DNA of 64,000 nt from Brachycybe producta (Eukaryota > Arthropoda > Diplopoda > Playtdesmida > Andrognathidae), in assembly GCA_036925085.1 (NCBI GenBank), contig JAUPFP010000142.1:1-64000 (forward strand), in the 5' to 3' direction. Below are positions 15,927 through 55,381 of this stretch, one piece after another. Below the pieces are notes generated by a model. It had not been told where the DNA came from. It did not search any database and was given only the letters and a program-made list of their open reading frames with translations. A program made the position numbers and the translations under genes. Numbering within the stretch: the stretch's first letter is position 1; each line of letters begins with the position of its first letter.

Positions 15927-16782
15927 TTAGGGCAGGTTCTCCGTTATAACTTCTCTAAGACACCTTGTACTACACATTACACAAAAGTCAATGAAATTAA
16001 GACAACCTCTTTTAAGATATCATCATTATCAGTTACCTCCCACCCCACCACCCTTTATCTCCCTTTTTTTTATTTTCCACCCATTTCTCATTGACTATTC
16101 CATTCATCCCACTTCCCGCAAACCTTCCAATCCTTCCCCTCTCCTTTTCTCCCTACGCTTTCTTTTTTTTTTTTACACACAAAACAATTCCCAAATGTCG
16201 TCATCACCTGCTCACAACTCAATCAAACTTTAATCAACTCTTCAATTGGTTAAATTCATTTACCAAACGTTGCTAATAAAATATTAAGTGGCTCCACCTC
16301 CTCCCCCCCCTCCTCTTCAATCAAATAAGACTTTTGTTTTTGGGACATTATTTCCTGACTGAATAAACTTATTTAAAAAAAGAAAGTTAAATTTAATTTT
16401 TAAACATAAGAAGAAGAAAAAAACCTCGAAAAAAAAGTAAAATTAATAATTTTTTTTTGGGGGGGGGGGGGGGGTTCTAATTAATTTAATCATTTCGATA
16501 ATATTGTGAAGGTGATGTGCAGAATCGCCAATTTTATAATTAAATATACTCATCGAATCATTAAATTAAAACTGTTAGAAAAAGTTTGAAGCCTTGAAGT
16601 GTTTTTTTTTTCTCTTAAAAGAAATGTTTTCAAACTATAATTTCTATAGTCGTTTTGACGTGAAGTAAAATCAATTTATTAATTTGTTGTTAGCAGTGAT
16701 TGCCTACTTACAAGGGGAAGAAAAAACCTAAACTGTTTGAACTCGTTAGTAATTAATTATGGTTAAAGTGAGCTCCTTATGA
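15927..16782. other. AT-rich intergenic sequence
   Basis: Pyrimidine-rich patch 16025-16175 and a T/G run near 16450-16474. TTGTTAGCAGTGATTGCCTA at about 16686 is one of four dispersed copies of this phrase (others near 24508, 46228 inverse, 51598). No gene recognised. Confidence 0.5.
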
Positions 16783-17289
16783 CCTCGTTTCAACTATAAA
16801 AATTAACTGCAATTATATAACCAAGGTTATAGTTAACTGCAGTTATACAGTGCGTTTCATATATATAGACGCACCCCAAAAATTGGTTATAACTCGAGTT
16901 ATAGTCAATGGATTCACCTGAAATTTTCAGCATAAAGAGATCATCTTATATTCTAAACTTTCTGCTAGGCAGAAATTTTTTTCTTTAAAAGGTAAAAATT
17001 AAAAAAATTAAAAACTGGAAAATGACCGTTTCATAATTATAGACGCACTAATGAACTTTTCACTTTTATTAATTATTGTGACAAAATAACATGCTGAATC
17101 ATTAAAAATAGTAAGGTATACGACTGTTATGATGTTTCAAAACTTAAAACATTCTTTTTTACAGAATTAAACAATATTTATAAGCAAATTTGCAGAAATT
17201 CTACCCCGAAACAGCTAAAATGGGACTTTTCAACTCTGCTATTGTAGTATAATCATAGCAATCTGTAAATCATTTTTGTATGATGTTGT

Positions 17290-17445
17290 CCCGAAAGTTC
17301 TCTGTAAGATTTAAGTCCGGGGACACCCTGGACATTCGAGAGTGGTGATATTCTGGTTTCGTAACCATTGATTCCTTAGATTACTGGAGCGAACTGGTGC
17401 ATTTTCTTGCTCGAATGCTAAGCTAACGCTAGGAAATCGACTTTG
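17290..17445 (-). pseudogene. Tc1-like transposase fragment, left arm of K
   Basis: Read on the minus strand, the frame gives FEQENAPVRSSNL, then WLRNQNITTLEC and a frameshifted stretch ending PRT. It matches the region around the second catalytic residue of Tc1 transposases (usually QDNAP). Stops and a frameshift break it. It mirrors the fragment at 17842-17991. Confidence 0.8.
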
Positions 17446-17841
17446 GCAGGTCAGTAAACACTATCATAATATTGTCTGATAATAAACATTATTTTTTGGT
17501 TGGTTCAAATGCGCTAAATACTTCGCATATTGTTAGGCCACCACCACCGACATATCTGAGTGCGTGAAAAAATTCAATCTCGATGATTCTGACGGTTTTT
17601 TTTTCTTTCTTCATATTGGAAGGATGTTACGAGAAAAACACAATATTTTCCTAAACAAAATTTCGGCAGTGGGGGAGCCTAATATTATGGGGAACATTTA
17701 GTGCCTTTCAAACGAGCAGCTTAGTTTTTGAAACGCGAGCTTAGCATTTATTTCAACCCAAATAAATATCAGTGATTATCAGACAATGTTACGAGAGTAT
17801 GTACTGCCATATTACATCGCTTCTATAGCATTTGCTTAGTA

Positions 17842-17991
17842 TTCCAGCAAGAAAATGGCCCAGTTTCCTCCAATAACCTAACGAAGGAATGGTTACGGAA
17901 CCAAAATATCACCACTCTCGAATGGCCGGCGTGTCTCCCGGGCTTAAATCCTGATGAAAACGTTTGGGACATCATTGTACATAATGATTAA
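17842..17991 (+). pseudogene. Tc1-like transposase C-terminal fragment, right arm of K
   Basis: The frame reads FQQENGPVSSNNL, WLRNQNITTLEWPACLPG and LNPDENVWDII before a stop. This is the D...PxLNPxEN.W block of Tc1-family DDE transposases; the terminal Glu of the NPxEN motif is kept, while the second Asp (QDNAP) is Glu here. Upstream, in other frames, LWGTFSA near 17693 and YQTMLREYVLPYY near 17780 are recognisable, so frameshifts separate the pieces. It is inactive. Confidence 0.88.
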
Positions 17992-18811
17992 GCAGATTGC
18001 CATCATGATAATACAATATCAAAGCTGAAAATTGCCATTTTAGCTCCTTTTCAGTAGAATTTCGGTAAATTTGCTTATAAATATTGTTTAATTCTGTAAA
18101 AAAGAATGTTTTAAGTTTTGAAACATCATAACAGTCGTATACCTTACTATTTTTAATGATTCAGCATGTTATTTTGTCACAATAATTAATAAAAGTGAAA
18201 AGTTCATTAGTGCGTCTATAATTATGAAACGGTCATTTTCCAGTTTTTAATTTTTTTAATTTTTACCTTTTAAAGAAAAAAATTTCTGCCTAGCAGAAAG
18301 TTTAGAATATAAGATTATCTCTTTATGCTGAAAATTTCAGGTGAATCCATTGACTATAACTCGAGTTATAACCAATTTTTGGGGTGCGTCTATATATATG
18401 AAACGCACTGTATAACCTGCAGACAAGCTAGAAGTGGTACTTAGTGTATTTCCATTTAAAAAAAATTAACCGTGGTTAAATAATTGTGTCACTTCCTGTT
18501 CATTTTCACCCATCCGTTCACCTATCCGTTACCCACCCATCCATTTTGAGAAATTTTCACTCCTCATTCAAGAAAAAAAACTGAACACGTGTTCTTCACT
18601 ATCCGCCATTTCGTTTGTAGGCTAAATTTGGTCTAAATACCGGAAGTGACGTTATTTAACCATTCAATGATATGGTTGTGCCAAAGCAGCTGAGTTAACT
18701 CCATTGTTCAGAAATGTAATCATTGGTTAACGTAAGCACATTCATTTCCGCTAGAAAATTAACTGTGGTTAACGTTTTAACTACAGTTAATTTTTGTAGC
18801 AGAAACGAGGT

Positions 18812-19683
18812 ATGAGGCAATATTAACCCCACATTTTATTACAAAACTAAGTTGTTTTAATAAATAAGTAAAATTATGCAACTTTATGCAAATTTTAAAA
18901 AAAAATTACGCAAATTTTTTTTAATTTACGGATTTTTATTTTGTTTATTTGAAACTGAGTTGAATTAGAATTTTGAAACTGAAGTTGATTACTGCACATA
19001 TGACATACATATGACATCCTAGCGTTTCCAGAAAGACATCAGAGTGGTCATTATGTGTTTTGTGTATTTTATGAAAACTGTAAGTCTAATAGTTTCTTTT
19101 CTAGTTTCTAACAAAAGTTTTCTAGTTTCTAATGGACCCTTCACAAGTTTTGCTTAAACATGTTGTTGACACAAAAAAAAAATGCAAAATGGTGACTTTT
19201 TTTCTGCACTTTTTTAATGTTCTTTCAACCACAACATTGAAAAATGAATTAAGCCTTTGTCATGAGGCGCTGTCACACAACATAAGTTAAATTATGCAAA
19301 TTTATGCAAATTAAAAAAAATTATGCCATTTTATGCATTTTTAGTAAAAACTGATTAATCACAGCACATATGACATCATAGTTTACCCCCCAAAAAAGGG
19401 GGGACCTCAAGTGTCAATACGTGTTTTATTCAAACGTTTCATCTTTGCCATTTTAGTTACTTTTCTAGTTTCTAATGTAGTTATGTTGACGTCAAAATGT
19501 TTATTACTGCACATATGACATCATAGTTCACTCAAAAATACATTAGAATACATGGTCATTTGCATGTTTGCTTGTTTTTTTTTTTTTTGCATTTTATATA
19601 AACTTTTGACTGTTTAGTGATTGAGTTACTTTTTCAAGTTTCTAAAAAAAAACCTTCGAAATGTTTCCTTAAAATTGTTTATG
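18812..19683 (+). repeat. diverged duplications with ATTATGCAAATTTATGC and ACATATGACATCATAG words
   Basis: GCACATATGACATCATAGTT-type phrases recur near 18993, 19364 and 19508. The block from CTGCACT to GAGGCGCTGTCAC (about 19205-19278) recurs near 19910-19985, an offset of about 705 bp. TTTCTAGTTTCTAA words recur near 19100, 19121 and 19460. The stretch appears to be a worn tandem duplication; no coding sequence. Confidence 0.6.
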
Positions 19684-24865: not shown

Positions 24866-25378
24866 GTGTGGGACATTTGCCCTAAAGACACTTGCCCTAA
24901 CGGGACAGTTGCCCTAACGGGACAGTTGCCCTAAAATCATTTGCCCTAGAAGAACACTTGGCCTAAAACCATTTGCCCTAAAGGGACATTTGCCCTAAAA
25001 CCATTTGCCCTAAAGGGACATTTGCCCTAAAAGGACATTTGCCCTAAAACCATTTGCCCTAAAGGGACATTTGCCCTAAAACCATTTGCCCTAAAGGGAC
25101 ATTTTCTCTAAAACCATTTGCCCTAAAGGGACATTTTCTCTAAAACCATTTGCCCTAAAGGGACATTTTCTCTAAAACCATTTGCCCTAAAGGGACATTT
25201 GCCCTAAAGCCATTTGACCTAAAAGGACATTTGCCCTAATCAGTAGTGTAAATATACATCATTTGGCGTTTTTTGCATGCCTGTGGCGCACAGAACCAAT
25301 TTAATAAACTCCACCGAAAGACACTAAACCGTATGAAAAGAAAGAACAAAAAAGTTTCTTTAGGGCAAATGTCCTTAT
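24866..25378 (+). mobile_element. minisatellite-ended element N, copy 1
   Basis: Starts GTGTGGGACATTTGCCCTAA, then a tandem array of GGGACATTTGCCCTAAAACC..CATTTGCCCTAAA (32-bp period near 25081-25170). A unique centre follows (TTAGTGTAAATATACATC, then GCACAGAACCAATTTAATAA and CCGTATGAAAAG). The right arm is reduced to one inverse unit, TTTAGGGCAAATGTCC, at about 25362-25377. It appears inserted in element U. Copy 2 (54789-55381) shows the full structure with a target duplication. Confidence 0.82.
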
Positions 25379-45496: not shown

Positions 45497-45877
45497 AACC
45501 AACTTTATACTCTCTTGCTAAGCAGCAAACCAGCCTGCGAAGCTTCAAAAATGACGTCAGAGCTCCAGGTTTTAGCCTTCGCCAGAGCATGAAGCTAGCT
45601 TTGAAATTGTTCAACTTTTCAAAGCTTAGCAACTCAAAGCACCAATCAGAAAACGGATAGACAAAAGGGGTGAATAAGTCACACCTTTTTTCTTCCAGAA
45701 GGGGAAGGGTTCTATTGTTTTGTGTATCTGTTTTATAGGATATAAAGGTCATAAAATAGGGTAAACTCTGCAAGACCACATGTATGTGTGAACAAGCTAA
45801 GCTTTGGGGAGCTAATTTTACAGAACTTCAAAAGCTTGCAAATCTTAGCAAAGTTTGGAGTATAAACCTACCCTAAA
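45497..45877. mobile_element. element O, copy 2
   Basis: Starts CAACTTTATACTCTCTTGCT and ends GGAGTATAAACCTACCCTAA. It is strongly similar to copy 1 throughout, about 708 bp downstream in the same orientation. Confidence 0.8.
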
Positions 45878-46135
45878 GCTTAGCAATTCAAAGCACCAAT
45901 CATAAAAATAGATACGCAAATGGGGTGAACAAGTCACACCTTTTTTTCTTCCAGAAGGGAAAGGGTTCTATTGTTTTATGTATCTGTTTTATAACAGGGT
46001 ATAAAGGTTAGAAAATATCGTAAACCTTGCAAGACCACATGTTTCTATGAACAACCTAAGCATTTGGGAGCTAATTTTTAGGAGCTTCAAAGCTTGGCGA
46101 ATCTTAGCAAAGTTTGGAGTATAACCCTAACCTAA
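45878..46135. mobile_element. element O, copy 3, left end missing
   Basis: Begins inside the element at GCTTAGCAATTCAAAGCACC, directly after the end of copy 2, and ends GGAGTATAACCCTAACCTAA. It is more diverged than copies 1 and 2, so it is older. Confidence 0.75.
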
Positions 46136-49012: not shown

Positions 49013-50000
49013 CAAGAAAATATTCCTCTTCAGCAAGAAAATGTTCATCTTCAGCTAGAAAATGCACATGTTCAACTGGAAAGCGTTCATCTTCGGCTAG
49101 AAAATGTTCATCTTCGGCTAGAAAATGTCCATCTTCGGCTAGAAAATGTTCATCTTCGGCTAGAAAATGTTCCTCTTTTGCTAGAAAATGTTCCTCTTCG
49201 GCTAGAAAATGTTCCTCTTCGGCTAGAAAATGTTCCTCTTCGGCTAGAAAATGTTCATCTTTTGCTAGAAAATGTTCATCTTTTGCTAGAAAATGTTCCT
49301 CTTCGGCTAGAAAATGTTCCTCTTCGGCTAGAAAATGTTCATCTTCGGCTAGAAAATGTTCATCTTCGGCTAGAAAATGTTCATCTTTGGCTAGAAAATG
49401 TTCATCTTCGGCTAGAAAATGTTCATCTTCGGCTAGAAAATGTTCCTCTTCGGCTAGAAAATGTTCATCTTCGGCTAGAAAATGTTCATCTTCGGCTAGA
49501 AAATGTTCATCTTCGGCTAGAAAATGTTCATCTTTTGCTAGAAAATGTTCATCTTCGGCTAGAAAATGTTCATCTTCGGCTAGAAAATGTTCATCTTCGG
49601 CTAGAAAATGTTCATCTTCGGTTAGAAAATGTTCCTCTTCGGCTAGAAAATGTTCCTCTTCGGCTAGAAAATGTTCCTCTTCGGCTAGAAAATGTTCCTC
49701 TTCAGCTAGAAAATGTTCCTCTTCAGTTAGAAAATGTTCCTCTTCAGTTAGAAAATGTTCCTCTTCAGTTAGAAAATGTTCCTCTTCAGCTAGAAAATGT
49801 TCCTCTTCAGCTAGAAAATGTTCCTCTTCAGCTAGAAAATGTTCCTCTTCAGTTAGAAAATGTTCCTCTTCAGCTAGAAAATTTTCCTCTTCGACTAGAA
49901 AATAATCATCTTCAGCTAGAAAATGTTCATCTTCAGCTAGAAAATGTTCATCTTCAGCTAGAAAATGTTCATCTTCAGCTAGAAAATGTTCATCTTCAGC
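49013..50000 (+). repeat. 21-bp minisatellite, about 47 copies
   Basis: Unit AGAAAATGTTCATCTTCGGCT with variants at two main positions (CA or CC in GTTCATC/GTTCCTC; CGGCT, CAGCT, CAGTT or TTGCT). There are almost no indels. Variants are clustered: CAG-type units lie at both ends, CGG-type in the middle. As 21 is divisible by three, at least two plus-strand frames stay open for the whole array (repeating SSARKC and ENVHLRL peptides). I regard this as non-coding because no flanking exon, splice context or known protein supports either frame. Confidence 0.95.
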
Positions 50001-54788: not shown

Positions 54789-55381
54789 AGGGTGTGGGAC
54801 ATTTGCCCTAAAGCCATTTTCCCTAAAACCACTTGTCCTAAAAGAACATTTGCCCTAATCATTAGTGTAAATTTACATCATTTGGCATTTTTTGTGCATC
54901 TGCAGCATGCAGAACCTATTTAACATACTCTACCGTATGAAAAGAGAGAAGGAAAAAAGTGGTTTTAGGGCAAATGTCCTTTAGGGCAAATAGTTTTAGG
55001 GCAAATATCCTTTTAGGGCAATTGTCCCTTTAGGGTAAATGTCCCTTTAGGGCAAATGGTTTTAGAGCAAACGTCCTTTTAGAGAAAATGGTTTTAGGGC
55101 AAATAGTTGAGCAAACATCCTTTTAGGGCAAATGGTTTTAGAGCAAACGTCCTTTTAGAGCAAATGTTTTTAGAGCAAATGTTTTTAGAGCAAACGTCCT
55201 TTTAGAGCAAATGGTTTTAAAGCAAACGTCCTTTTAGAGTAAATGATTTTAGGCCAAATGGTTTTAGAGCAACCGTCCTTTTAGGGCAAATTGATTCGGG
55301 GCAAATGTCCTTTTAGGACAAATGTCCATTTAGAACAAATGGCTTTAGGACAAGTGTCCATAGGGCAAGTGTCTATATCCC
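54789..55381 (+). mobile_element. minisatellite-ended element N, copy 2, with exact 8-bp duplication
   Basis: Starts AGGGTGTGGGACATTTGCCC and ends GGGCAAGTGTCTATATCCC. CTAGATTC lies on both sides (54781-54788 and 55382-55389). The left arm has four CATTTGCCCTAAA-type units; the right arm has about 20 inverse units (TTTTAGGGCAAATGTCC, GGTTTTAGAGCAAACGTCC). The unique centre matches copy 1 (TTAGTGTAAATTTACATC, CCGTATGAAAAGAGAGAAGG). In copy 1 the expanded arm is the left one. No coding capacity. The duplication length suggests hAT or a similar superfamily. Confidence 0.92.

Follow-up and report, generated by a model that had tools for sequence, protein, structure and literature searches.

The element at positions 16848..18410 of the window (the whole 64,000-nucleotide stretch of the Brachycybe producta assembly analyzed here) is a palindromic, TA-flanked, non-autonomous Tc1-type transposon of 1563 bp. 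From comparison with its relatives in the same genome, we consider it very probable that the outermost ~320–344 bp of its right arm were replaced by left-arm sequence, in the direction left to right, before the family spread.

Results

Architecture of the element

The element ends in TA-CAGT...ACTG-TA and consists of two near-identical outer arms, two diverged inner arms and an asymmetric center:

16846..16847, unstranded: left TA target duplication (TA/TA in 45/48 young copies)
16848..18410, unstranded: whole palindromic non-autonomous Tc1-type element, 1563 bp, a unit that recurs at many loci
16848..17191, plus strand: donor-type outer arm on the left, 344 bp, with 343/344 bases shared with the right outer arm
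16853..16874, plus strand: left-end outer direct repeat, a probable transposase site (putative binding) in the IR/DR layout; 91% match to 17027–17048
17027..17048, plus strand: inner direct repeat of the left end; 91% match to 16853–16874
17192..17487, minus strand: left inner arm (arm positions 345–640), decayed transposase C-terminal part; 76–77% inverted match to the right inner arm
17528..17736, unstranded: asymmetric center
17771..18066, plus strand: right inner arm (arm positions 345–640), transposase C-terminal part, from the DDE_3 match and arm comparison
17776..17991, plus strand: 71-aa open frame, DDE_3 fragment (E 3.1e-05, below the cut-off)
18067..18410, minus strand: right outer arm, very probably overwritten by left-type sequence; left-type at diagnostic sites in 48 copies
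18092..18334, minus strand: minimum overwritten tract (arm positions 77–319), from sites diagnostic between the L090 left and right arms
18210..18231, minus strand: inner direct repeat of the right end, from repeat comparison
18384..18405, minus strand: outer direct repeat of the right end, from repeat comparison
18411..18412, unstranded: right TA target duplication (TA on both sides in 45/48 young copies)

The original prediction, made from the letters of the window alone, described outer arms of 344 bp each that differ at one base, and a sharp drop of identity at 17191/18067. Both descriptions hold. The single mismatch is at arm position 95 (window 16942, C, versus the complement of 18316), and identity plotted per 50 bp along the aligned halves is non-uniform: bins counted from the tip (identical/different/gap) read 50/0/0, 49/1/0, four times 50/0/0 and 48/2/0, then fall to 40/8/4 and 39/10/2, with similar values onward. 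Identity between the arms is ~76–77% from position 345 inward, and BLAST aligns the interior segments 4–319 and 559–872 at 76%.

Each outer arm contains two 22-bp direct repeats (arm positions 6–27 and 180–201, 174 bp apart, 91% alike), which we take to be the IR/DR layout of Tc1-type transposons, with the repeats as putative transposase sites. Folded as a single strand, the outer arm shows nothing unusual (z −0.86). The flanks at 16500–16847 and 18411–18850 contain many short inverted motifs such as TTAACTGCAGTTA and TTAACCGTGGTTAA, and the element may itself sit within another small inverted-repeat element.

A young family

In the genome examined (295 Mb, 442 contigs), all 40 scored matches to the 344-bp repeat (of 1083 candidates) and all 40 scored matches to the element interior (of 620 candidates) are full-length. 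A 55-base pattern across the right-arm junction occurs exactly at 98 places genome-wide and, at three or fewer mismatches, at 221 places, which include left arms (2 bases off the pattern); the left-arm pattern occurs at 225 places. From these junction counts we estimate a family of ~100–110 copies. Among the fetched loci, 48 young copies have both ends, with distinct flanks in 48/48 and TA on both sides in 45/48. The set of 69 distinct fetched elements, in which copies of identical element sequence were collapsed and one member (L014, 916 bp) was mis-paired by the script, holds 27 elements of exactly 1563 bp and 12 that lack TA on one or both sides.

Across 43 full-length young copies, the differences from the modal base amount to 45/14777 at the left end, 113/37615 in the interior and 50/14788 at the right end, that is, mean divergences of 0.30%, 0.30% and 0.34%, and the modal arms of the family differ at 1/344 sites. 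This low divergence marks a recent burst in which outer and inner parts have changed at a similar pace. One young copy lies inside the terminal repeat of an older palindrome relative and splits it (L066 on C17, 518–577 and 2136–3131), an arrangement that resembles nested insertion.

The right end carries left-type sequence

Relatives of the family were chosen by their similarity to the right inner fragment (L092, L093 and L095 by similarity to the right end of L088) and thus not at random. Four of them, L088, L089, L090 and L095, have the interior of the young family with a different right end. Compared with the young copy L004, their left ends differ at 0–3 sites of 180–239 and at 0–1/81, and their inner arms at 3–5 sites on the left and 5–11 on the right, whereas right-arm positions 240–320 differ at 14–16/81 sites and right-arm positions 1–239 at 5–10 of 226–239. 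The right ends of L088, L089 and L090 also contain an inserted block of ~11 bp, and L095 has a right repeat of 355 bp.

Sites that distinguish the left and right arms of L090 allow each young right arm to be typed. Over positions 1–344 the young right arms are left-type at 20/21 sites in 46 copies, at 20/20 in one and at 18/21 in one, while the right inner arm (345–640) is mostly right-type in 47/48 copies, L006 being the exception. These sites place the overwritten tract over arm positions 77–319 at the least and before 345, with its inner end between window positions 18066 and 18092; it may reach the tip, where L090 gives no informative sites. Because both arm types are identical over the stretch, the exchange point can be placed only between arm positions 319 and 345, and the identity of the two arms ends at position 344.

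Phylogenetic analysis gives the same picture. Trees and the net-divergence test described below used the 13 unconverted relatives with both arms usable out of L069–L095 (27 fetched). Six were excluded because an end or some of the interior is missing (L070, L071, L072, L074, L081, L092), and L073, L076, L078, L083 and L087, in which both inner arms are right-type, were kept apart as an older group; L091 is a young copy, L094 belongs to another family, and L095 was used only in the site comparison with L004. The trees included 6 young copies, and the comparison of outer and inner arm identity 12. In the trees, young right arms cluster with left arms over 240–344 and with right arms over 345–640. 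A topology that places them with other right arms is rejected for 240–344 (p-AU 1.7e-4) and for 1–239 (4.1e-4); one that places them with left arms is rejected for 345–640 (2.8e-6) and compatible with the data for 240–344 (0.32) and 1–239 (0.085).

The unconverted relatives, the 48 young copies and the tree tests together argue that the right end had been overwritten with sequence of the left type by the time amplification began. The suggestion in the original prediction that the outer arms were homogenized, for example by gene conversion, is thereby upheld as a gene-conversion-type event, and sharpened to a left-to-right direction and a boundary at arm positions 319–345. The unconverted junction is found at 33 places at three or fewer mismatches, 7 of them within one mismatch, and some of the 33 may be left arms of older elements; set against the 98 exact converted junctions, these counts indicate that it was the converted form which multiplied. 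A benefit of the conversion for transposition is not evident, since the strongest changes, those at 240–320, lie inward of the inner direct repeat (180–201); the right-end direct repeats seem undamaged in L089 and L090 and, except for one base, in L088.

A separate element, C3:4876499-4878087, has a 355-bp right-type repeat at both ends, with a left-type base 345 in one arm. It is possibly a candidate for conversion in the opposite direction; a left-type inner arm at this element was absent among 40 scored of 946 candidates.

Alternative explanations for the identity step

The right end could also have been acquired by ectopic recombination, through crossover with, or conversion from, a different genomic copy. 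This bears on the donor and overlaps the preferred explanation; we regard it as possible, at rather less than an even prospect. Near-identical left ends are indeed present at other loci, and for Galileo, exchange between copies has been invoked by its authors (PMC3573991). A different copy as donor would leave a trace no different from that of repair from the element's own arm; however, nothing favors another copy over that arm, and the donor belonged to the same close lineage as the left arms of L088–L090.

Selection for transposase binding might instead have conserved the outer arms while the inner arms decayed. The paired direct repeats of the terminal repeats do sit in the outer arms, and the outer arms of the relatives are already more alike (87–94%) than their inner arms (75–81%), so that part of the contrast between outer and inner arms predates the conversion. 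We nevertheless hold selection to be a very unlikely cause of the step, because divergence in the young copies is about the same for the outer as for the inner parts (0.30–0.34%), left–left distances among the 13 relatives are 0.063 at 1–239 versus 0.084 at 345–640, and young right arms change clade between 240–344 and 345–640. Mild constraint on the outer arms is possible; as the origin of the step, constraint is disfavored by the equal divergence and the change of clade.

The original prediction had offered a second option, two related Tc1 copies that shared recently amplified long terminal repeats. Inner arms that are diverged and oppositely oriented would suit a head-to-head insertion of two separate Tc1 copies that share a young terminal repeat of 344 bp, yet we consider such an origin highly improbable. 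The 48 young copies each combine both ends and the interior in a single element, this entire unit is repeated between distinct flanks (48/48) with one TA pair, and the unconverted relatives are already the same single palindrome. The search for the 344-bp repeat elsewhere in the genome likewise speaks against it, as all 40 scored full-length matches adjoin the interior of the window family (8 checked as loci and 32 by comparing their places with junction patterns that reach ~13 bases into the interior). Complete Tc1 copies with 344-bp repeats did not turn up in the scored part of the candidates or among the fetched loci. The description "head-to-head" is thus apt for two transposase 3′ halves pointing outward within one element and not for two copies.

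Inverted repeats can be misassembled, but an assembly artifact from collapsed inverted copies has next to no probability here, since the structure recurs at 48 loci that each have their own flanks, 45/48 are bordered by TA at either end, and each arm has private mutations.

Mosaic copies and a proposed route

Two of the 48 young copies are arm-switch mosaics. L058 matches the left arm up to 564 and the right arm over 566–641; after 6 bp of filler it returns to the left arm at 579. L006 keeps the normal order to 1195 and continues with an inverted left arm, and it therefore has left-arm ends at both termini. Both mosaics fit break repair with template switching, the outcome to be expected if an excision gap is refilled from a template and the strand being synthesized jumps from one inverted arm to the other. 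In three copies (L006, L043 and L058) rearrangement joins fall close to arm position 635 (632–641), perhaps a weak spot for copying.

We propose the following route. The ancestor was a palindromic Tc1 derivative with two outward-pointing transposase 3′ halves and terminal repeats. A break at its right end, e.g., an excision gap, would have been repaired by copying a left arm onto that end, the donor being the same element, the sister chromatid or another close copy. The copying strand would then have switched back inside the perfect homology at arm positions 319–345, so that the inner arms, older and diverged, stayed as they were. The converted element then spread to ~100–110 copies, presumably by cut-and-paste movement with transposase supplied in trans, as suggested by the family copies examined, none of which has an open transposase frame of more than 141 aa. 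The family-wide conversion would be a clean version of the process seen in L006 and L058.

Conversion seems rare at present. None of the variants in the 43 copies (60 left, 54 right) is common to both arms of one young copy, where label shuffles give a mean of 0.13 shared and power for weak sharing is low; ongoing conversion within young copies was rejected on this count.

Transposase remnants and classification

The transposase fragments of the inner arms are C-terminal halves that point outward. The 71-aa frame on the right, the longest frame wholly within the element, matches Pfam DDE_3 with E 3.1e-05 and 24.3 bits, below the curated cut-off of 28.6, while the two left-hand frames tested against Pfam gave no match. 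The claim that both inner arms carry Tc1 C-terminal fragments consequently stands for the right arm at this below-cut-off level; for the left it rests on similarity to the right inner arm. Two relatives of the family exceed the DDE_3 cut-off (C9:2448822, 31.6 bits; C17:3166803, 31.5 bits), and a 141-aa frame in the relative L073 matches the Sleeping Beauty transposase (5cr4_A, E 7.5e-07). Sleeping Beauty QHDN corresponds to QQEN both in the L073 frame and in the window frame.

With C-terminal fragments in place of a full transposase and an intact catalytic triad, the window element is a Tc1/mariner derivative and not an autonomous member, and the TA target duplication of that superfamily is present in 45/48 young copies with both ends. 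It resembles MITEs and other non-autonomous high-copy elements in having no full transposase frame, a uniform length and many copies; it is longer than typical MITEs. The P-superfamily transposase and 7–8 bp target duplication of Galileo/Foldback-like elements are replaced here by a DDE_3 fragment and a TA duplication.

A search with the 71-aa fragment for an autonomous parent gave no open frame longer than 141 aa in 150 scored matches (1064 candidates). L094 (C61:275850-278050) has an intact 363-aa DDE_3 Tc1 transposase frame and terminal repeats of ~245 bp, 90% alike; it was rejected as the parent, being of a different Tc1 family whose DNA matches to the window element reach only 26.5 bits. 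Further Tc1 frames of 362–363 aa occur at C5, C33 and C108, and the L094-type family may be active.

A probable earlier homogenization of the ends

Among the 13 unconverted relatives, net left–right divergence is 0.0002 over positions 1–239 (label-swap null sd 0.0007; 713/2000 at or above), compared with 0.083 over 240–344 (1/2000) and 0.137 over 345–640 (0/2000). The corresponding left–left distances are 0.063, 0.065 and 0.084, and the near-zero value at 1–239 is therefore not simply the result of low mutation. This pattern suggests that the ends would have been identical over ~239 bp in the common ancestor of the 13 relatives, at the base of an earlier radiation. By subgroup, the net divergence at 1–239 is 0.0076 (L075, L093, L088–L090) and −0.0001 (another subgroup). 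Since ~239 bp is close to the 245-bp repeat of the L094 family, the block may also be the original terminal repeat.

The older group, in which left and right are a labeling choice because the 69-element set was oriented by element center, shows nearly even identity of outer and inner arms in L073 (95.2/93.9%), L083 (94.9/91.6%) and L076 (89.8/87.5%), as a plain inverted duplication would give. L087 is uneven and goes against the even-arm reading (95.4% outer over 174 sites versus 87.5% inner), and L078 is too short to judge (88.9% outer over 99 sites, 91.6% inner). In a third, still older group of three partly truncated elements, net divergence is 0.005 at 1–239 versus 0.034–0.036 further in.

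A tentative and, in our estimate, rather unlikely extension is that terminal homogenization resets the ends to identity before each amplification wave, as a trigger or prerequisite of the burst. It would comprise two events, one from position 1 to ~239 before the radiation of the 13 relatives and one from position 1 to ~320–344 before the present burst. The third group, with its three partly truncated elements, would point the same way.

Other repeats in the window

At 49015–49997 the window contains a 21-bp minisatellite of ~47 copies (93% match). Several frames of this array stay open on either strand (368 aa and 350 aa among them), which probably follows from the length of the unit. Related short tandem arrays with units like CATTTGCCCTAAA lie in opposite orientation ~30 kb apart at 24870–25239 and 54960–55359, and a 259-bp unit is present in two tandem copies at 45621–46135 (85% matches).

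Discussion

Arm-to-arm gene conversion reportedly keeps the arms of inverted repeats alike in sex-chromosome palindromes (PMC8981503). Those palindromes are large and chromosomal and convert frequently, whereas the window family is a mobile element with rare events. For the C. elegans Tc1 element, Fischer et al. 2003, going by its title, is said to describe sequence exchange between dispersed copies.

A close parallel is Galileo, a P-superfamily transposon of Drosophila mojavensis and D. willistoni. Its long inverted repeats took in internal sequence, including the end of the transposase frame; break repair in which one terminal repeat serves as template for the other has been proposed, and exchange was suggested to be able to start new families and bursts (PMC3573991, PMC4168063). 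The likeness lies in non-autonomous copies and long inverted repeats with transposase ends, and the difference in superfamily and target site (P, with 7–8 bp duplications in D. willistoni, versus TA in the window family). In the window family the before and after states, donor side and exchange interval are resolved.

Within Tc1-mariner, passages of PMC4877112 describe a Bari variant with two identical long repeats. Bari belongs to the superfamily of the window family and likewise has a TA target, related MITEs and long terminal repeats, whose ends are identical in one of its variants; in contrast, this identical-end variant is putatively autonomous, and those passages contain no palindrome of transposase halves. 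A literature search over titles and abstract openings, mostly of papers outside subscription, and over passages of the papers named here turned up no Tc1 palindrome with resolved end conversion.

In sum, end conversion has already been proposed for other transposons such as Galileo, as a way of renewing them and founding new families (PMC3573991), and the value of the present case lies in its before-and-after record: unconverted sisters, converted burst copies and arm-switch mosaics in one genome. The coexistence of these forms makes the donor side, the boundary and the timing relative to the burst measurable, and the link between end renewal and amplification becomes testable. Conversion is a tentative and rather unlikely candidate cause of the burst; if it is borne out, end renewal would act as a trigger or prerequisite of transposon bursts.
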